Shown piece by piece: positions 3,451-61,918 of a stretch of DNA of 64,000 bases. The position numbers and the translations under genes are program-made. The notes below the pieces were generated by a model. The model worked only from the letters and a program-made list of their open reading frames with translations, was not told where the DNA came from and did not search any database. This stretch comes from Spiroplasma gladiatoris. Lineage in GTDB: Bacteria > Bacillota_I > Bacilli_A > Mycoplasmatales > Mycoplasmataceae. The DNA lies in assembly GCF_004379335.1 (NCBI RefSeq), contig NZ_CP038013.1, positions 124,001 through 188,000 of the forward strand, in the 5' to 3' direction. The number at the start of each line of letters is the position of its first letter. Within the stretch, counting starts at the first letter, position 1.

Positions 3451-5619
3451 ATGTACGACTTTTTAAAAGATTTAAATGATCAACAACTAGAAAGCATTAT
3501 CACAACTGATGTTCCACTAAGAATAATAGCAGGAGCAGGGAGTGGAAAAACAAGAGTAATAACAAATAAAATAGCTTATCTTGTTGAACAAGAAAAAATT
3601 AACCCCTACAAAATTTTAGCTGTTACTTTTACAAACAAAGCAGCAAACGAAATGAAAAGTCGTGTGCAAAAAATTTTAAAAAATAGTTTATCTGTACCTT
3701 ATATTTTAACCTTCCACTCATTTTGTGTAAGAGTTTTAAGAGAAGACTATGAGTTTGCAAACTTAAAAAAAGATTTTATTATAATTGATACAAGTGAACA
3801 ACAAAAGATTATTAGAAAAATTCTAAAAGATTTAAATTTAGATGACTCAAAAAATAAACCTGAACGAAAAATTTTATCTAGAATTAGTAATTGAAAATCT
3901 TCTTTTACATCATGAGAAGAAGTAATCGATAATACTTTTAATAGTCAAGAAAAAAGTTATGCAAAAGTATATAGATACTATGAAGATTATCTAATAGATA
4001 AAAATTTCGTTGACTTCGATGATTTACTTTTAAAAGTACATAAAATGTTTAAAACAAATATGAACGTAAGAAAAAAGTGAATTCAAAGATTCGATTATAT
4101 ACTTGTAGATGAGTTTCAAGATACAAACAATGTTCAGTTTGATTTAATAAAATGATTAACAGACAAAAGAGGTTGTTTAACAGTTGTTGGAGATCCTGAC
4201 CAAACTATTTATTCTTGAAGAGGTGCTAGAGTACATATTATTTTAAATTTTGAAAAAGAATTTGAAAGAGCAAAAACTGTTAAACTAATAAAAAATTATC
4301 GTTCTACTCAACCTATATTAGATTTAGCAAATAATTTTATTCAAAATAATAAAAATAGAGAACAAAAAGATATATTTACTGATAAAAAAGAAGGAGACAT
4401 AGTTGAAGTAAAAGAATGTGCTTCAAAATATTTTGAAGCTAAGTTTATTGCAAAAAAAATAAAACAATTAGTTGAAGAAAATAATTATAAATATTCTGAT
4501 TTTTTTGTACTATATAGAATGAACGCTTGGTCTGTTGAGTTTGAAAAAGAATTCTCAAATTCTAAAATACCTTACGAACTAGTTGGTGGTTTTGAATTTA
4601 GAGAAAGAAAAGTTATAAAAGATGTAACTGCTTTATTAAAAGCAGTAGCAATTCAAGATGATTTTTCATTTGAAAGAGTATTTAGTTTTGTACCTAAAGT
4701 AGGAACTGTCACTTCTGAAAAATTATTTAATTGTGCATATGAAAATAACATTAATATGTTTGAACTTTTAACTAAAAGAGAAGATTTGACTATTATGATT
4801 TCTAAAAATTTATATGAAATAAGTAACGCTTTAAGAGAGGCGCATAAAAAGTTTTTAAATAACGAAAACGTTGTTGATATTGCAAATTTTCTAATTAAAG
4901 AATCAGGTTATAAGCAAAAATTAGACCTTAAAGATAAAGAGGGAATTGATGCAATTGAAAATATAGAAGCATATTTTGATCAAATGAAAAAATTTGATGA
5001 TGAGTATGATAAAAATCAAGAACAATCAAATCGATTAGTCAAATTTTTACAAGAAGAAACATTAAATATAAATAACGAAAATCTTATGGTTGTTCCAAAT
5101 AAAGTTACTTTAATGACAATTCATGCTGCTAAGGGATTAGAAAATAAAGTTGTATTTATAGTTGGTTTAAGTAGTGATGTTTTTCCTTCAAGAATGAGCA
5201 TGTTTTCAAAAGAAGGTTTAGAAGAAGAAAGAAGAGCTTTTTATGTTGCAATAACAAGAGCTCAAGAAAAATTATTTATTTCATATGTTATGGGAGAATA
5301 CTCTTATATTGCTTCAGGACAATTAGGTCCGAGTCGTTTTATAGGTGAGTTAGATCCAAATTTATATAGTATCGAGAAAAATATCTTTTTTCACTCAGCA
5401 ACAGAAATGAGCAGTAAAAAATATGATAGTGGAGTAGTTAATCAAAAACCTGAAAAAATTGATCCAGGAGTTAAAGTAGGAGATATTGTAGAACATTTTA
5501 TGTTTGGTGATGGGGTTGTTAGCAAAATCTTAGATAAATATATTCAAATTGCTTTTTCTAATCCTGCATACGGAAGTAAGGCAATACCAATCAATTCCAA
5601 TGCTTGAAATAAAAAATAG
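3451..5619 (+). CDS. pcrA: UvrD/PcrA-type ATP-dependent DNA helicase
   Basis: A 722-residue SF1A 3'-5' helicase, the normal length for PcrA/UvrD, acting in excision repair and replication restart. Q-motif LNDQQLESI is at residues 8-16, Walker A GAGSGKT at 28-34 and Walker B DEFQDTN near residue 220. GDPDQTIYSWRGA (motif III), the TIHAAKGLENKVVF motif V block and EERRAFYVAITRA (motif VI) follow. Five or more tryptophans are TGA codons, including the true last Trp just before NKK and the TAG stop at 5617. SD AAGGAG lies 5 bases before ATG. The C-terminal DGVV...YIQIAF segment is the small Tudor-like tail seen in PcrA. UvrD versus PcrA naming is arbitrary here. Confidence 0.92.
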
Positions 5620-40670: not shown

Positions 40671-40700
40671 AAAGGGTCGCCCCAAACTACATATATTTTA
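40671..40700. repeat. IS inverted repeat, left end
   Basis: AAAGGGTCGCCCCAAACT and following bases match the opposite end in inverted orientation with one mismatch over at least 22 bases. Confidence 0.85.
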
Positions 40701-41587
40701 ATAAATTACTCTCAAAAATTTCTTTGAGAGTATTTTTTAATTTGTTTATTATTCTATTATTAGAATAATTTCATATACAATCTTTCATTCAATTTATAAA
40801 AGTTCCATTATCTTCAAACTTATAACCTACATAATAATTTTGTTTTATGCTTTTAAAAAATGTTTCTACTATCAAGTTTTGTCAAGAAGCATATACATCT
40901 GTCATGCTTTTAATAATATTGTAATTGTTACAAAATTCTTTCATAATTAAGCTCCTAAATTGTGATCCTCTATCCGTGTGGATAATGCTGTTTTTTACAT
41001 CATATTTAGCAACTAAAAGTTTCATACTAATAATAAGTTCTTGTTTGTTTGATTGTTTGCAAAATATGTTATTAAAGGTAGTCTAGAATATATATCTATA
41101 TAAGCAAATAAGTAATTTTTTGTTTTTTATTTTGAACTCCAAAATATCTAAACAAATTTTTTCTAACGATTTATTTGCAATAAACTCGCTTTTATTTGTT
41201 TCTTGGTTTTTTAATAAATTGGGAGCTGTATTTATTAGATCTTTGTTTTTTTTAGTATAAGCTTTTCATTTTCTACTTTTTTCACAATTTTCAGGAACTA
41301 GATTTTGTGTTTTCATAGAACTCAAGACCATTTTTCGACCTAAACCAAATTTTAGTGCAATTTTTTTGTGCCCTCATTTTCGATGAGTTCCATATTTTGA
41401 ATATTTATCGTAAAAAACTTGGTTTATAAATAAGTCATAACTTGTGTCTCTTATGGTCATATATTCTTTTGAACCATTTGATAATCATTTATTATAAGCT
41501 TTTAGATTAATATTTAAAAGATTAATTAGTCATGATAATGCTATATTTTTTGCTCGTAATTTTTTGCTATTTTATACAATTCGATAT
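40690..41587 (-). pseudogene. Broken IS3 transposase orfB (integrase core)
   Basis: On the minus strand the DDE parts can be followed in changing frames: DIYSRLPLITYF, IIHTDRGSQFRSL and NLIVETFFKSIKQNYY, ending WNYSNRIINKLKNTLKE. The N-terminal region shows YGTHRKWGHKKIALKFGLG. Several frameshifts and stops make it non-functional. Confidence 0.8.
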
Positions 41588-51825: not shown

Positions 51826-51830
51826 GTAAC

Positions 51831-51911
51831 TTGAACATCTAAAATAAAATTGACAGTAAAAAAGTACTTTTATTGTTAAAATTTTATTGAAAGGTGTTCT
51901 TTTTATATGGC
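51831..51911 (+). repeat. IS end remnant (copy of 57320-57400)
   Basis: About 80 bases, beginning TTGAACATCT and including TTGACAGTAAAAAAGTAC, nearly identical to the left end and orfA start of the IS at 57.3 kb. It begins 5 bases after the potCD stop and breaks off just after the transposase start codon. Confidence 0.85.
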
Positions 51912-52770
51912 CACCTTCAAAGAGATATATCAATTTTTTTATATTTTGATACTTAAAAATGATAAATAAATGTTTTTAAAAATACTTATGTTATAAAGAT
52001 TTATAAAATATGTATATTTTTTTATTTGGCAGTTTGAAGGTTGTGTATATATTTAGAAGCTTTTGGAAACAACTAACGCATTTAAAAAACTACAAACATA
52101 ATAAGCACAATGGAAAATATGAATTAATTCAAAAAATTAATAGATAAAAAAATGCAAAGCTTAAAAAAATAACTGACCAAAAATAGAGAATTTGGTTTTA
52201 AAAAGTTTAATAAATTAATGGATAATTTATAAGAAAAATAATTAATCATAAATAAATATAATTATAAATGTAACGTTTTTTTTATGTAAATTTCTCTATA
52301 TAACTCGAACTAGTAATTATTGTGATAAAAAGAAATAAATCTGATTATGACTCGAAAATATACATAAATAGGACTTATCTTATAAAAGATTTTTTTTAAA
52401 TAATAATAAATTTATGGATGCCTAAAATAAAAAATATTTTTAATAATATAGAGATTATTGTAAGTCAAGCAAAAATCACTGGAATTATATGAATATTTAA
52501 ATTTTATTCAATAATCACTATAAAAAAAATTTATGGAAAACAAAAAGAAAGTTAAACAATAACTAACGGTCTTGACCATGTTAATAGAAATTAATCTTTT
52601 TATCACAAAAATAAACTGTGAGTTATATATATTACTTACGTACCTTTCGATAAAAAAGTTCTTAATTAAGTGTTATAAAAAATGCTGGTATTAAATTTAT
52701 ATTAGGTGATTAAATATCTTTAAAAACGATTTAGATATTATAAAACAAGCACTTGAAAAAGCTTGTTTTA
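51912..52770. other. Non-coding, no intact gene
   Basis: AT-rich sequence with many stops in all frames and no gene signature. It contains a hairpin AAAACAAGC / GCTTGTTTT at about 52743-52772. Probably eroded mobile DNA. Confidence 0.5.
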
Positions 52771-53075
52771 TAGAATAGATATATTTAAAACTTATTATTA
52801 ATTCTGATAATAGAAATCAAAATACTTCTATTGTTGTTAAAAGATGCGCTAAAAAAACGACATCATAGTATCAATATATAGACCAAGAAGTTCAATTGAT
52901 AATGCAATACGCGAAACTTTTTCTCATTCTTTTTCGAAAAAGAATGAGAAAAAATTCTAAAACAAAACAGCTATGATTATTTAAAATTATAATTGAGAAT
53001 TACATAAAATTTTACAATAATACAAGAACAATAATAAACATAATAGTTCTTCAGTATATCTTATTTAGATCGTAT
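52771..53075 (+). pseudogene. Remnant of IS3-type transposase (DDE C-terminal part)
   Basis: Readable pieces in two frames: NSDNRNQNTSIVVKR, then SIYRPRSSIDNAIRETF and YIKFYNNTRTI. They match the usual HSDQG, SMSRRGNSLDNA.ESFF and YI.YYNN.R blocks of OrfB proteins. Frameshifted and incomplete. Confidence 0.6.
52918..52953. repeat. Perfect 36-base palindrome
   Basis: Arms of 18 bases, reading TTTTTCTCATTCTTTTTC and its exact inverted repeat with no loop, inside the transposase remnant. Confidence 0.9.
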
Positions 53076-53439
53076 CGAAACAAATAATAAAGTTCATAAA
53101 TATTGAAGTATTTTTATAAAATACATTTTGTATACTTGATAAAGTATATTTATTGTTAAATATATGTAATGTTTATTTTTATTTTAAATAGAATTTTAAA
53201 TTTTTTGTAACTTGTTTTGCGATATTTGACAAATTGACAAAAAACTATAATTTTTTTATTTTAATTTAAAATTTTTTTACATTTATAAGATATTTATATC
53301 TAACAAACACCAACGATTGCAAAGTGAAATTTGTATATATTTTTTTTCTGCAAAAATTTTTGTTGTAGTTTGATTTATATTAAAAGCATTGACAAAATAA
53401 GTTATATGTTTTTTATTTTCGCGCTTGTAGTTTTTAAGT
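53076..53439. other. Non-coding, no intact gene
   Basis: Nothing supported. A few TTGACAAA-like promoter hexamers occur by composition. Confidence 0.4.
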
Positions 53440-53660
53440 TTTTGAAGTTTTATTTAAATTTGGTATCATTTTTAATTGATATATAACAATCAATAATATA
53501 ACCTGTTTTTACATTCTTTATAACACTCCAATAAGCAATTTGTTCATTTTCATATTGCAAATATCTGACATTTATTACATATAGTTCGCTTTAGTCATAT
53601 TTAATTCATTGTCTATTTACAAAATTAGTTATTTTTTCTACTTTATTATCATTCGGTTTA
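53440..53660 (-). pseudogene. Remnant of an IS3-type transposase, minus strand
   Basis: A minus-strand reading gives NRQWIKYD, SELYVINVRYLQYENEQ and YWSVIKNVKTGYIIDCYIS, resembling the start of the OrfB catalytic core (W.TD ... YLSVI.D.....I). Stops interrupt it. It is separate from the remnant at 52771, which is on the other strand. Confidence 0.5.
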
Positions 53661-54666
53661 ATCATTCTTTTTAGTCCGACTTTTAATTTATCTACTAAAA
53701 AAACTCACATATTTATAAATCAATGAGTTTGTTGCTACACATCCGTACATCATTTCCCCTTATTTTCATATTCTAAGTTATTTATAACTATTGTTGGTAT
53801 TAAAAGATATGTTTTGAATAAAATTAACAAATTTTTGATTAAACTTATAAATAAAAATAATTTCACTTTTTTACCAATCTATAATAATATATTGAATAGT
53901 TTGTAATACGCAGCTCAAAAAATCAGCTTATAAATTTTTTGTTATTTGCAATATATAAGTATTTTAAATCTTTCTTTTTCTAAACTATTATGAAAGCAAA
54001 TTATTTTTTAAAATTTTGAAGTTCTTTTCTTAGAACTTCCAATTATTATCGACCAACTACACTTAATAGCACATTTGTCCAAATAATCCTTATTAAAGTC
54101 TTTTTAACTATTCTATCTCTTGTTCTTTATAACCTAAAACTTAATTTCTAGTTGCTGAGTATGATATTTATATTTTTTTGCTGATTTTTTTGAGTGTTTG
54201 TTTTTCAATCCATTTTTTACCGCTTATGCTTTTTTTAAAATATACTTTTTTTATTTATTCTTTTGTAATTTAGTATAAAAAATCACTTATGCTTAGATTA
54301 TATTAGATTTCTTTATTTTAACTTTATTAATATTAGATTATAGTAAATTTATTTTTAATGTCTTTTTTACTATAAATATTAATCTCCCAAGGTAAATAGT
54401 ATAATTCACTTTTTAATTATTATTATATTTTCTACTACTTTTATTGTTTGAACTTTTTGTCTTTGACTTTTGGTATATAAAAACAACCTTTATATAAAAA
54501 CTAGTTATTTAAATTATTTTAAATAACTTGGTCTTTTAAAGGTTGTCTATTCTATTTCTTGTTTACATATTCTTTTTCAAACTCAAACTTATTTTTATTA
54601 TTTTAATAAAGCTTTTTATTGTTTATAAAATTTTTTAAAGAAAATTATTAATTACAGCTTTAAGAA
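53661..54666. other. Non-coding, no intact gene
   Basis: AT-rich with stops in all frames. Probably more eroded mobile DNA. A hairpin with AAACAACCTTTATATAA and AAAGGTTGT arms is near 54480-54546 and may be a leftover terminator. Confidence 0.4.
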
Positions 54667-55281
54667 CTATTCTAAAGTTTTAACTTTATCTAAATATGTG
54701 TTTGCAAGTCAATTGTCTACATCGTTTCTACTACTTGAATAAACTTCTTTTTCTATAATGGCATCTTTTGATGAATTATCTCTTAAAAAGTTTAAAGCTC
54801 TAGTTAAATGTTCACTTAAATAAGCAGAAGATCTAATAAATGGAAAAATACGTTTATTATCTAAGTTATAGTGCTCTAAAAATGAACCTATTATCATAGG
54901 TGCAACATGTCACCATATAGGAAAACCTAACAATATATAATCATAATTATTTATATATTCTGGATATTCTTTCATTTTTGGTCTTAAGTTATTTACCGCT
55001 TCATTTCTTGCATCTTTTGATAATTCTGAGTAATTTGAAGAATATGGTAATTCTCTTTCAATTTTAAATGTTTTTACATCAAGTTTGTTTGCGATATAAT
55101 TTGCCATAGTTTCAGTGCCATTCGATCAAGAAAAATAAACCACAATTGTTTTTGATTTTGTATTTTCATTTATTTTGTTGTCAAATTCGTTATTTATATT
55201 AGATGTAGAACAACTAACGGTACCAATTGATAAATTGGAAATTAGCGCGATACTAAATACTCATTTTAAAATTTTTTTCAA
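54667..55281 (-). CDS. Lipoprotein with flavodoxin-like domain
   Basis: A 204-residue protein with TTG start at 55281, supported by a strong AAGGAGG SD 6 bases upstream. Residues 1-24 form a signal peptide with lipobox GTVSC. The rest resembles a flavodoxin: VVYFSWSNGTETMANYIA (FMN phosphate loop, Trp = TGA), YDYILLGFPIWWHVAP (second FMN loop), and FPFIRSSAY. Flavodoxins carry electrons with FMN; a membrane-anchored external one is unusual. It lies behind a MerR-type promoter (55330-55360). Role in quinone or disulfide reduction at the surface is speculation. Confidence 0.78.
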
Positions 55282-55329
55282 AAATACCTCCTTATATATA
55301 AAGTTTAAATATTTTAACTTTATAATATA

Positions 55330-55360
55330 ATGATAAAACATTAGAGCAACACTAATGCAA
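55330..55360 (-). promoter_or_regulatory. MerR-type promoter and operator of the flavodoxin lipoprotein
   Basis: On the minus strand: -35 TTGCAT (55355-55360), a 19-base spacer and -10 TATCAT (55330-55335). The spacer contains the dyad TTAGAG-CAA-CACTAA at 55341-55355 (plus-strand reading), one base off the operator upstream of the reductase gene. A 19-bp spacer is typical for MerR activation. Confidence 0.7.
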
Positions 55361-55372
55361 TACAAATTTATA

Positions 55373-55738
55373 TTAAATTAAAATTTTTTGAAAAATTTTA
55401 ATTTTATTTTTTAAAAATTCTATTTGATCATCAATATCTTTTCGCATTTTTATTGCTAATTTTAATTGTTTATCTATTATTTTAAATCTTTCTAACATTG
55501 TAGTATCGCCTTGCTCTATAAGTTGCAAATATCTTTGAATATTTTTTAGGCTAAGTTTTGTTTTTTTTAAGCAAATTACAAGTTCTATAAATCTAAGATC
55601 TTTTTCTTCTACATAACGATATCCATTAGCATCTCTTTTAAAACAACTTAAAATATTTTTTTTATCATAATATCTGAGTGTATGTTCAGATATAGAATAT
55701 CTTTTTGAAATATTATTTATATAATATTTTTTATTCAT
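55373..55738 (-). CDS. MerR-family transcriptional regulator
   Basis: A 121-residue regulator: N-terminal winged HTH (YYINNISKRYSISEHTLRYYDKKNIL, then RDANGYRYVEEKDLRFIELV), a connector, and a dimerisation coiled coil (FKIIDKQLKLAIKMRKDIDDQIEFLKNKI). No Cys pair at the end, so a metal sensor is unlikely; the single Cys residues C32 and C56 could be thiol sensors, as in the AdhR/NmlR group (inference). It sits between the two genes whose promoters carry its likely operator. Confidence 0.88.
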   Translation of the reverse strand: MNKKYYINNISKRYSISEHTLRYYDKKNILSCFKRDANGYRYVEEKDLRFIELVICLKKTKLSLKNIQRYLQLIEQGDTTMLERFKIIDKQLKLAIKMRKDIDDQIEFLKNKIKIFQKILI

Positions 55739-55792: not shown

Positions 55793-55823
55793 TTGACTTA
55801 GAGCAACTCTAATGATTTATTAT
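55793..55823 (+). promoter_or_regulatory. MerR-type promoter and operator of the aldo/keto reductase
   Basis: -35 TTGACT (55793-55798), a 19-base spacer and -10 TATTAT (55818-55823). The spacer contains a perfect dyad TTAGAG-CAA-CTCTAA (55798-55812). Spacing and position are classic for MerR-family activators. Confidence 0.78.
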
Positions 55824-55860: not shown

Positions 55861-56730
55861 ATGAAAAAAATCAAATTAAATGATGGTAATGAAATGCCTT
55901 TTATATCTTTTGGTACATATCAAATAACAGATTTAGAACTATGTGAAAAAGTTGTTTTAAATGCTTTGGAAGTAGGATATAGGGCAATTGACACCGCACA
56001 AAGTTATTTCAACGAAGAGGCTATAGGTAATGCCCTAGAAAAAACAAATGTTGCAAGAAAGGACATATTTTTAACTACAAAAATATGAATTAGTAATTAT
56101 AATTACAATAAAACAATTGAGTCATTTTATAATTCTTTAAAAAAATTGAAAACAAATTATATAGATTTAGTTTTAGTTCATCAACCTTTTGGTTATTATA
56201 GAGAAGCGTTATCTGCACTTTTAAGTCTTAAAAAGTTAGGTTATATAAAATCAATAGGTATATCAAATTTTTACGATGATAAATTGGCTGATTTATGCTT
56301 ATTTAATAATAGCGATTTTATTCCAGTTATTAATCAAATAGAAGTGAATCCATTTTTTCAAAGAGACAAAACAATAGAAAATAACATAAAATATGGTGTA
56401 AAACCAATGGCATGAGCTCCATTTGCTGAGGGAAAAAATGATATATTTAATAACTCAGTATTAAAAAAAATTGCAAACAGACATAACAAATCAGTAGCAC
56501 AAGTTATTTTAAGATGATTATACGAACAAGACATCCCATTTATCACAAAAAGTATTAATATCGAAAGAATGAAAGAAAATATTTCTATATTTGATTTTAG
56601 TTTATCTAACGAAGATAAAGAACAAATCAAGTCTTTAGATAAAGGGGTTTCTCAGTTTTTTAATCATAATGATATTGATGGTGTTGAAATGATATATTCG
56701 TTAGTGAAAAAGAGAAATGAAATTAAGTAG
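55861..56730 (+). CDS. Aldo/keto reductase
   Basis: A 289-residue NADPH-dependent reductase of the (beta/alpha)8 AKR family. Catalytic tetrad D44, Y49 (AIDTAQSY), K74 (LTTKIW) and H107 (VLVHQP) are all present. The GISNFYDDKL block and the C-terminal cofactor segment (PFITKSINIERMKENISIF) complete the fold. Length is normal. SD TTAGGAGG. Likely activated by the divergent MerR protein; substrates may be toxic aldehydes such as methylglyoxal (inference from MerR/AKR pairs). Confidence 0.92.
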
Positions 56731-57318: not shown

Positions 57319-57395
57319 TTTGAACATCTAAAATAAAATTGACAGTAAAAAAGTACTTTTATTGTTAAAATTTTATTAAAAGGTGTTCTTTTCAT

Positions 57396-57851
57396 ATGGC
57401 AAAACAATGATCAAAAAACGAAAAAATTAATATTATTGAAGAATCTAAAAAAATTAGAATAACAGATGCTGCATTAAAATATGATGTTAGCACAAGTACA
57501 GTCAAAAGATGAAAAGCAGAACTTAAAACTAAAGGTGAAGGCTCTCTTGAATGAGGGAACAAAATTCAAATAAAAAGAAATATTAAGAAATTTAAATCTC
57601 ATAATTGAATTTTTAAGGACCTTGACAATATGACAACAGAAGAATTAAGAGAAGCTTTAAAATTGGAACGAGCTCTAAAAAAGCATTTGGCGAAGACAAC
57701 TAAGGAAAATTACTTCGCTATTTTTAATAGTTCAAAAAAGTTTACTTCAACATTAATTTGTAAATATTTAGGCGTTTCAAGATTTAGTTATTTAAAATGA
57801 CTAAAAAGTGGAAAACCTATGAATAAAACTACAATCAAGTTCTTGCTATAA
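57396..57851 (+). CDS. IS3 transposase orfA (HTH protein)
   Basis: A 151-residue frame starting ATG 57396 with AAAGGTG SD. It has an HTH (DAALKYDVSTSTVKRWKAEL), a coiled coil (ELREALKLERALKKHLAKT) and a second HTH-like part (STLICKYLGVSRFSYLKWL). In active elements, orfA and orfB are joined by programmed frameshifting; here orfB is broken so this is a relic able at most to bind IS ends. Confidence 0.8.
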
Positions 57852-58553
57852 AAATCAAACTTATTTTTTATTTGTTTAAAAAACGTTTAGGTTACAACAT
57901 GATAACTTTACTTTTAAACAAATATTTTAATCAAAACTTAAAACCATGAGTAGTTTATAGATATATGAAATTCAATAATTTAAAAGCAGTTTGAAAAAAA
58001 GAGTGCCAAAATATGACAAATCTGGCTTTGAGATATGAAAACTTATTGAATAGGAATTTCAATTCAGATTGTTTAAATCAAAAATGAGTTACAGATGTAA
58101 CTTACATAAAGATAGCCTCAGGAAATGCATAATTATTTGTTATAAAAGATTTATATAATTCAGAAATTGTTGATTAAAAATTATCTAACAGTCCTAATGG
58201 TAAATTATGTTATAAAAACCTTATCTCCGCAGTCAAAAAGAGAGGTGCTCCTGATATTATTCATTCTGATCAAGGTAGTCCTTATACCAATGAAACTTGA
58301 AAAGTTTATGTGATGAAAACAAGATAAGTATATCCATGTCAAGAAGAGGTAACTCTCCTGATAACGGAGTGTGCGAATCTTTTTTTGAACAATAAAAAAT
58401 GAATGTATTTATACTTATAAAATAAAAGAGTGAAATTATTCAAATATCTATACAGTAATTTCAGATTATATTGATTATTATAATTATGTTAGATTTATGT
58501 TGAAACATAAAAAAACTCCATACGAAATTCGTATGGAGAAAGTACCTTTTTAA
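57852..58553 (+). pseudogene. Broken IS3 transposase orfB
   Basis: Reads KRLGYNMITLLLNKYF, WVTDVTYIKIASGN, then HSDQGSPYTNETW, SMSRRGNSPDNGVCESFF-like and KTPYEIRMEKVPF, with stops and shifts between. First Asp (WVTDVTYI) and second Asp (HSDQG) of the DDE triad are visible. Non-functional. Confidence 0.82.
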
Positions 58554-58593
58554 TGTCAATTTTAATTGACAAGTTCAAACTAGTTTTTTTTAT

Positions 58594-60064: not shown

Positions 60065-61918
60065 ATGAAAAGATTATTATCTATAATGGGTGGAGTTGGA
60101 TTAATATTTTTTACATCAAGTAATGCAATATCATGTGGATTTAAAATAAGTAACAATAATTCTTCTAAAAATACAGATAATAACAAAAGTGATGATGGTT
60201 TTGATTATGGAGAAGTCAAACCAGGTGTTCCCAGTTCAGAAGATGATAATTTGGATCCAGGTAGTGGTGGAATCAAAGATGAAGATGATGAAACCAAAAC
60301 TAGTAAAGAAAAATTTATTTTAAATAAAAACAAAGGTAATATCTATGTTGATACTTTCTCTTTAGAACAAATTGCATTAATTGATAATTATGCAAAAATT
60401 CAAAATTACCCAAATAGTATTCCAAAAAAAGTAATTTTTGATAATGAAGAAGATAAAGAAAAAGTAACAATTAAAATTGAAAAAGACATTATTAAAGCAA
60501 AAGTTCGTAAAGAACTTGATACAAAAACAATTTTACCTATTAAATTTAGTTTAAGCTGTGTTGATGGAAGTAAAGCTAGTTTTACTTTAAACGTACAAGC
60601 AAAGCAAGTTGATTTAAATGAATTACAAAATAAAACAAAAGTTAATTTTTTTGTTGGAGAATATGATGAATATAATCAACCTAAAAACATTGGTTATGAT
60701 AGTAATTATTTTGGGGATATTAATAATTTTGATTATAAAAAATTTTTAAATAAATACATTGAATTTAATGGTATTAGTATCTTAGATGAAGATGTAATAA
60801 CTCAAATTGTAGAAAACGAAACTTATAATAAAGGTAAAAATTTAGAAATTGTTATTGCAGCAAAACCAAATCAAGAAGTGCAAAGATTAAAACCAAACTC
60901 TGCTTTAAAATTATCAATTAATTCTAATGTTGATCCAATTGATTACTTTGCTAAAGATGAAATTGAAGTTAATGTTTTTAGAGGGACTTATGAAGAAATT
61001 TCTAAAAAAGGTATAAAAACCGGAGATGAACAAGGCATAAAAGCACTAATTTTTGAACAATTAATGAGTGGCAATACTCCTTATAAATTTTTACATAAAT
61101 TAAGTTCTGATAAATATGCAAAAATGACTACAAGACTTTTATCTTCTGCTAAACTAGAAAAAACAGAAAATACAAAAGGAAAAATTATACTAGACATGTC
61201 TCAATTTGATAATGTTTTTAAAGGTAACTTAACAATAAATTACAAACTTATTGAAGAAACTAGAATAAGTTTATTTGAAGAAGTATATGATAGTAAAAAC
61301 AAAAAATATAAAAAATATGACATTGATGAAGCTATATTGAAAAATCCAGATGAAGCAAAAATTAAAGAAGCTAAAAAACAAATTTATAATAAATTTAGCT
61401 CCAATTTTAGAGAAAGAGTCTCTTTAGAAGAATTTACTGAATTTACTAGATTTAGTAAACAAAAAAAAGAAACAGGATTTGAAAAGATATTTAAAAAACA
61501 GTTTAGTGAATATTGAGCGGGATATGGAAAATTTAATGGTGATCAAGAATACAAATTAGAAGTCCTACCTGGTTCAAAGGTTTTATATGGACATTATGCT
61601 AAAACATTTTGAAATTACATTAACACATATGACACAAAAAACGATAAAGGTAAATGAGAGGTTGTTGTAAAAGATCAAATCTCTGGTCTAGTGAATCAAG
61701 ACAAATGGGTTAAACAAGGTGGTGGAACATCTGGGTCTGATTTTTATGGTTATGAAGGTGGATTTAATGATGAATATACCGAAGGTCTTGGATGATGAAC
61801 AAAATCTTTATCAAATGAAGACCAAGAACCAAAAGAAGACAATGGTTGTGTACAAACAGGAGAATATAACGAAGGATTTCCAATACTGAAAATTAATTAT
61901 TTAATAAAGCAATACTAA
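60065..61918 (+). CDS. Large lipoprotein, unknown
   Basis: A 617-residue lipoprotein. Signal peptide with lipobox NAISC, Cys at residue 24, followed by a Ser/Asn/Asp-rich tether (~30-80). The body is hydrophilic. The C-terminal third (SLEEFTEFTRFSK, VLPGSKVLYGHYAKTFW) resembles the C-terminus of the lipoprotein at 20194. It runs past TGA at 61517 through ~130 more residues with several TGA Trp codons, including two in a row (GLGWW). SD TTAGGAG. Single gene between tRNA units; function unknown, likely surface exposed. Confidence 0.8.

Follow-up and report, generated by a model that had tools for sequence, protein, structure and literature searches.

The window analysed here is a 64,000-nucleotide stretch of Spiroplasma DNA (G000:C1:124001-188000, part of a 1.16-Mb genome). 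On its reverse strand, at 54667..55281, lies a gene whose predicted product is a lipoprotein of 204 residues with a Flavodoxin_4 domain, assigned by profile, structural model and fold match, which we refer to as lipo-flavodoxin. Next to it, on the same strand, is the gene for a MerR-family regulator of NmlR-like type with a cysteine at position 56 (55373..55738; profile and orthologue comparison). Beyond this, on the forward strand, a gene at 55861..56730 encodes a DkgA-like aldo/keto reductase of 289 residues without a signal peptide; its profile match, 233.9 bits, is below the 425-bit DkgA cut-off. The regulator and the reductase adjoin lipo-flavodoxin in 6/6 genomes that carry it and, in one of them (G076), a gene for an NAD(P)H-binding, NmrA-like protein is placed between regulator and flavodoxin.

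Several other features of the surrounding DNA were recorded. Between lipo-flavodoxin and a gene that looks by eye like part of a polyamine-type ABC transporter, about 2.8 kb (51826-54666) contain no frame longer than 76 residues and appear AT-rich by eye, possibly as a result of gene decay. IS3-like transposase genes in pieces (40687-41460 and 57396-58553) flank the region, and the element at 57390-58560 gave one plasmid match, at 66%, to a Spiroplasma ixodetis plasmid. A putative lipoprotein of 617 residues is encoded at 60065-61918 and has no Pfam match at 0.001. Elsewhere in the genome, by eye, there is a gene for an MreB-like protein.

The original prediction had placed the flavodoxin gene at these coordinates on the reverse strand, with a TTG start behind a strong Shine-Dalgarno sequence. 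This is borne out, given that TGA is read as tryptophan: the gene contains four TGA codons and its frame is open under that reading, which is also the sole reading that opens the long genes of this Mollicute DNA. The Shine-Dalgarno sequence, AGGAGG, lies at 55287..55292 on the reverse strand, 5 nt before the TTG. Residues 1-23 form a predicted signal peptide, LKKILKWVFSIALISNLSIGTVS (55213..55281, reverse strand), directly followed by the codon of the lipobox cysteine, Cys24 (55210-55212, reverse strand).

We searched 20 congeneric genomes with the mature domain as query and found orthologues in six, our own included; signal peptide and lipobox are kept in 6/6. The four closest start with TTG, and the two most divergent (G088 and G076, the latter starting at position 5425 of locus L020) with an ATG behind a Shine-Dalgarno sequence. 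In a comparison of the window gene with that of G121, codons 1-25 gave dN 0.083 and dS 0.513 (from few sites), and codons 59-204 gave dN 0.041 and dS 0.303. The signal peptide thus looks translated and under purifying selection, within the limits of 25 codons, and its recurrence in all six orthologues, the ATG and Shine-Dalgarno sequence in two of them and the low dN/dS together imply that it is no chance feature.

These data also bear on a quite different explanation, that the protein is a cytosolic flavodoxin or quinone reductase starting at the internal ATG at 55107, with the hydrophobic stretch upstream left untranslated. As had been foreseen for standard gene calling, genetic code table 11 breaks the frame and lists one from 55107, so that the signal peptide is lost. 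That frame would encode no complete flavodoxin: the ATG specifies Met59, which in our AlphaFold2 model lies inside the first helix (residues 54-67), and a start there would remove beta-strand 1 and the phosphate loop, making the whole fold impossible. We therefore rejected the internal start. The selection on codons 1-25, the lipobox in every orthologue and the ATG with its Shine-Dalgarno sequence at the matching place in two species also count against a cytosolic start, to which we give next to no credence. For annotation, there is a practical warning: a table-11 reading, or a restriction to ATG starts, conceals the signal peptide of this protein.

The presence of signal peptide and lipobox in all six orthologues and in all nine members of a sister clade described below makes it very likely that lipo-flavodoxin is exported. 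LspA is encoded in the same genome (PF01252, 5.1e-22), and Cys24 is the predicted site of lipidation. The tethering of the protein to the outer surface, as first proposed, is well supported by the lipobox in the orthologues and by the LspA gene. Across the order, 7/148 genomes have a Flavodoxin_4 match, and the three such matches from other families (G018, G062 and G072) lack a signal peptide. One congeneric genome holds a second, decayed flavodoxin copy whose later part is interrupted by stop codons (G151:C1:429911-430374, locus L021). Among plasmids, 75 records encode flavodoxins that are only distantly related, all below 60% identity; an E. coli plasmid flavodoxin (L124:6983-7567, NZ_CP051728.1) has an N-terminal RR signal resembling a Tat signal and lies near genes for a cupin, a carboxymuconolactone decarboxylase and an alcohol dehydrogenase. 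We found no publication on lipo-flavodoxin among the best-matching literature on Spiroplasma flavodoxins, on lipobox- or MerR-linked flavodoxins, on PF12682 and on DUF4405.

The domain assignment itself is clear. Residues 44-194 match Flavodoxin_4 (PF12682) over profile positions 1-154 of 155, with an E-value of 1.5e-21 and a score of 77 bits, where the cut-off is 24. The predicted order of signal peptide, lipobox and flavodoxin fold is confirmed. The AlphaFold2 model, built from 48 sequences, has a mean pLDDT of 85, with values of 84-98 per 10-residue block across residues 41-200. In fold comparison (VIA-align), with fusion constructs such as GPCR entries containing flavodoxin disregarded, the top matches were 4ICI (Z 21.0), 3KLB (Z 20.7), 4J8P (Z 20.0) and 3EDO (Z 19.2); 2MWM, in which the protein of 3EDO was solved by NMR, scored Z 15.7. 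Other flavodoxin-fold families began at Z 14.2, below the solved Flavodoxin_4 proteins. The structure prediction that had been proposed as a check thus yields a fold like those of 3KLB, from Bacteroides fragilis, and 3EDO, from Lactobacillus acidophilus; the titles of both entries name FMN as bound, and sequence identity to them is 24% and 18%. Taken alone, the export and the fold of lipo-flavodoxin are conclusions in which we have great confidence.

Three loops that face the flavin in this family were located by alignment, all on the reverse strand. The first, YFSWSNGTE (residues 49-57; 55111..55137), we take from general knowledge of the family to be the phosphate-binding loop. Flavin loop 2 reads LGFPIWWHVAP (residues 118-128; 54898..54930), and flavin loop 3 reads FIRSSAYL (residues 148-155; 54817..54840), replacing the common F.TSGGS, which appears in 3KLB as FATSGGS. 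Because loop 3 lacks the common TSGG, the affinity for FMN could be weak.

To place the protein among its relatives, we scanned genome contigs and kept the best 80 of 583 confirmed matches, which judging by their titles come mostly from Clostridia and Bacteroidota. By a crude rule, 38 of these 80 are scored as having a lipobox; the rule overlooks some (such as L042) and accepts doubtful ones (such as L051), and since the query included a signal peptide and the 80 are its top-scoring matches among 583, the fraction should not be read as a rate for the whole family. Even so, the premise of the original prediction, a normally cytoplasmic location for flavodoxins, fails for Flavodoxin_4, extracytosolic members of which are also described in a published study (PMC11334425). 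The proposed inspection of homologues likewise showed the lipobox at their start.

For a tree, 78 of the 80 loci (the short fragments L038 and L094 were left out) were combined with seven Mollicute rows, 85 in all; the window protein falls with close orthologues in a clade of four rows, with support of 100/100. Its sister is a group of nine proteins (support 98/94; joint clade 97/94), namely L037, L039-L044, L046 and L048, eight of them in Bacillota and the ninth in Anaeroplasmataceae; owing to a long branch (1.45), the exact place of the window clade is less sure than these numbers suggest. All nine sister proteins have an N-terminal lipobox (eight by the rule and L042 by eye), and the two groups have in common the motif WWH[TV]APM.IG (WWHTAPM.IG in the sister clade) and an altered flavin loop 3. 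An aldo/keto reductase gene lies near 6/9 members of the sister clade and near 26/80 of the best relatives, raw counts that stand without a background rate near random genes. A MerR relative is found near 4/80 and, within the sister clade, near 1/9 (L037), so such a regulator does not accompany the family in general. All these neighbour counts are lower bounds, since the loci differ in length.

The sister clade departs from the window clade in other respects. A LysR-like gene is nearby in 5/9, some of its loci contain an Fe-alcohol dehydrogenase and further exported flavodoxins, some of its proteins have several Flavodoxin_4 domains, and a GAT triplet follows loop 3 in 4/9 (L037, L044, L046 and L048). 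In 12 loci of the wider set of relatives, examined gene by gene, the Fe-alcohol dehydrogenase cluster occurred in six and the LysR-like cluster in seven, the families of both clusters having been confirmed on examples. The L048 protein is a lipoprotein of 592 residues with three Flavodoxin_4 stretches. Exported proteins of the flavodoxin cluster stand in tandem in clostridial and Anaeroplasmataceae loci (L048:2816-4594, L041:1384-4414 and L043:3081-6096), where they could form multi-flavin chains.

The loops raise the question of whether the fold still serves redox chemistry, or whether lipo-flavodoxin is an adhesin or scaffold that has recycled a flavodoxin fold and lost FMN binding. The change of loop 3 from TSGG to RSSAY speaks for such a loss, as does a phosphate loop that reads NG rather than GN. 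Nevertheless, S51, S53, T56 and W123/W124 are retained in the alignment; the sister clade combines a similarly altered loop 3, QSAS or QGAS where the common form is TSGGS, with a GNT-like phosphate loop; and the neighbouring genes and those that share the promoter encode redox enzymes. A non-redox lipoprotein is unlikely in the light of these points, and in our reading lipo-flavodoxin would bind FMN non-covalently.

How an exported flavodoxin acquires its flavin has been described for other members of the family. In that study, ApbE was shown to flavinylate two Flavodoxin_4 proteins, in each case at an insertion that separates beta-1 from alpha-1 (Huang 2024, mSystems, PMC11334425); the genes of flavinylated members co-occur with the cytochrome DUF4405, and signs of flavinylation are seen in extracytosolic flavodoxins but are missing from those of the cytosol (PMC11334425). 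Lipo-flavodoxin resembles the proteins in that account in belonging to PF12682 and in being extracytosolic, but it differs from them in lacking the insertion and the GA[ST] motif, in coming from a genus in whose genomes neither ApbE nor DUF4405 was found, and in being linked to an aldo/keto reductase and a MerR regulator. Alignments revealed no beta-1/alpha-1 insertion with a flavinylation motif, and a GA[ST] scan was negative in 6/6 proteins of the window clade. ApbE, one of the genes that were to be looked for, was found in 0/20 genomes of the genus, our own included (the control was positive in 7/14), and so was DUF4405 (0/20; control positive in 5/14, over the cut-off in three).

We accordingly rejected ApbE-dependent flavinylation of lipo-flavodoxin. 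All three of the features examined, insertion with motif, ApbE and DUF4405, place the window clade outside the ApbE system; FMN would then have to be taken from outside and bound non-covalently. Among the relatives, GA[ST] is present in 15 of the best 80, including four of the nine sister proteins (GAT after loop 3; DNSAGAT in L037), so a flavinylation-like site may exist there.

This survey also addresses the idea that the protein is an extracellular electron-transfer shuttle, which would collect electrons at the membrane and deliver them to acceptors outside the cell in the manner of flavinylated Flavodoxin_4 proteins with DUF4405. A system of this sort has been published (PMC11334425), and we found DUF4405 genes near exported Flavodoxin_4 genes in clostridial loci (L049 and L039). 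But neither ApbE nor DUF4405 was found in the 20 genus genomes, searches for FMN_bind and Ferric_reduct found none in the genome of lipo-flavodoxin itself, and the insertion that carries the flavinylation motif is missing, so we regard a shuttle as improbable. The surface electron-transfer system hinted at originally may exist, but none of the partners sought was found, and the gene context points to electrophile or aldehyde stress instead. In five relatives (L062, L079, L083, L087 and L107), long frames suggest by eye a putative DUF4405-type membrane domain fused to Flavodoxin_4.

A flavin transporter had likewise been put forward as something the genome should encode. Three candidates for the S component of an ECF transporter are present, one of them above the Pfam cut-off, though none could be tied to flavin; at each of the three loci the longest frame is that of a neighbouring gene. 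Within 10 kb around lipo-flavodoxin (L024), we recognised no flavin transporter, and the sole transporter gene, by eye, is the end of the polyamine-type ABC transporter about 2.8 kb away. The protein could in principle be a flavin-capture lipoprotein that hands external FMN or riboflavin to an uptake transporter, with redox activity secondary. Its export signal and flavin-type fold would suit such a role, as would the ECF candidates elsewhere in the genome. The 10-kb neighbourhood does not, and a promoter and neighbours of aldehyde-stress type also argue against this role, which we consider quite improbable.

The evidence for that stress context lies in the promoters. The hallmark of MerR control is a dyad within a 19-20 bp spacer between the -35 and -10 elements (PMC1526738, PMC11049809). 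The flavodoxin gene is preceded by TTGCAT and TATCAT separated by 19 bp with the dyad TAGTGTTGCTCTAATG (55330..55360, reverse strand), and the aldo/keto reductase gene by TTGACT and TATTAT separated by 19 bp with the dyad TAGAGCAACTCTAATG (55793..55823, forward strand). Both sites thus show the MerR arrangement, with the dyad in a spacer of 19 bp. From them we drew up the pattern TTGNNYTAGN7CTAAN5TANNAT; its occurrence at the locus is given by construction, and the informative result is its rarity. The 20 genomes contain 12 exact matches; every one falls within the six genomes with lipo-flavodoxin, ten of them at the locus, and the reversed pattern used as a control gave none. In the genome of the window, the exact pattern occurs twice, before the flavodoxin and before the aldo/keto reductase. 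In three of the six genomes (G121, G149 and G076), the flavodoxin promoter has one mismatch by eye.

A window scan with a shorter dyad and two mismatches allowed gave 8 matches against 3.6 expected, and 2/100 shuffles likewise gave as many as 8; just two of the eight, at 55340-55356 and 55797-55813, lie in the promoters, and the longer pattern was adopted for this reason. The two remaining exact matches of the longer pattern, both in G076 (G076:C1:541625-541655 and 757947-757977), precede genes that by eye encode another aldo/keto reductase and a transketolase-like enzyme, pointing to a wider regulon in that species.

The regulator matches the NmlR model NF041849 with 5.7e-17 and 61.9 bits, under the 175-bit cut-off. 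A close orthologue (60-100% identity) occurs in the six genomes with lipo-flavodoxin, other matches being at most 50% identical, and Cys56 is kept in 4/4 regulators compared. Residues 7-120 align with profile positions 3-116, so that Cys56, if the alignment is ungapped, corresponds to profile position 52 and would sit at the position of Cys54 of NmlR and Cys52 of AdhR. A review (PMC4776306) reports that the sensor cysteine of NmlR/AdhR is required for the response to formaldehyde, and that AdhR of B. subtilis answers methylglyoxal or formaldehyde. A MerR-family regulator with a sensor cysteine and a carbonyl-reducing target is what our locus has in common with the NmlR/AdhR regulons of H. influenzae, N. 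meningitidis and B. subtilis; it differs in that the targets are an aldo/keto reductase and a surface flavodoxin, and in the score below the NmlR cut-off. The classical NmlR/adhC pair is resembled by another pair in the same genome, a paralogous regulator (39% identity) beside a zinc-type alcohol dehydrogenase at about 42 kb (G000:C1, by eye). From the promoter architecture and gene order, we infer that the adjoining MerR protein controls both promoters.

Overall, these data lead us to propose, with a probability of about one half, that lipo-flavodoxin is a surface lipoprotein with a non-covalent FMN flavodoxin domain, belonging to an electrophile- or carbonyl-stress regulon under an NmlR-like MerR protein together with a cytosolic DkgA-like reductase. 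This stress reading is supported by the recurrence of the lipobox, the synteny in 6/6 genomes, the rare shared promoter, Cys56 and the FMN-bound fold neighbours. An electrophile, perhaps an aldehyde, methylglyoxal or a quinone, would react with Cys56, and the regulator would twist the promoters with their 19-bp spacers into the active form. The aldo/keto reductase would clear the carbonyl inside the cell; lipo-flavodoxin, having taken up external FMN, would catalyse or relay electron transfer to the electrophile or a quinone at the membrane face. The inducer of the regulon and the substrate and electron donor of lipo-flavodoxin are put forward here as a proposal. The weakest steps are the electron donor and the substrate, for both of which our searches gave no lead. 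A bolder extension, to which we attach only a small chance of being right, is that in this wall-less cell, for which no respiratory partner was found, an inducible surface flavoenzyme guards the bare membrane; it would acquire FMN from the fluids of the host with no need of ApbE and reduce external electrophiles such as quinones or enals by way of extracellular reductants such as thiols or reduced flavin.

Exported Flavodoxin_4 proteins have already been published. What is unusual here is the combination: no flavin-attachment enzyme was found, nor any membrane redox partner among the families sought, and the promoter architecture is shared with an aldehyde reductase in a wall-less cell. The gene context with MerR and aldo/keto reductase is new. 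Covalent attachment by ApbE is the published answer to how exported flavoproteins retain their flavin; lipo-flavodoxin would be an exception, and a conserved exported flavodoxin for which no ApbE was found raises the testable question of how such a protein is loaded and reduced. If the bolder extension is true, lipo-flavodoxin would stand as the first case of a clade of lipo-flavodoxins with the WWH motif, also clostridial, whose role lies in carbonyl stress and not in respiration. The locus also suggests a role in electrophile stress for some of the exported Flavodoxin_4 proteins, within a regulon whose simplicity, two exact promoters in its own genome, makes it easy to test.
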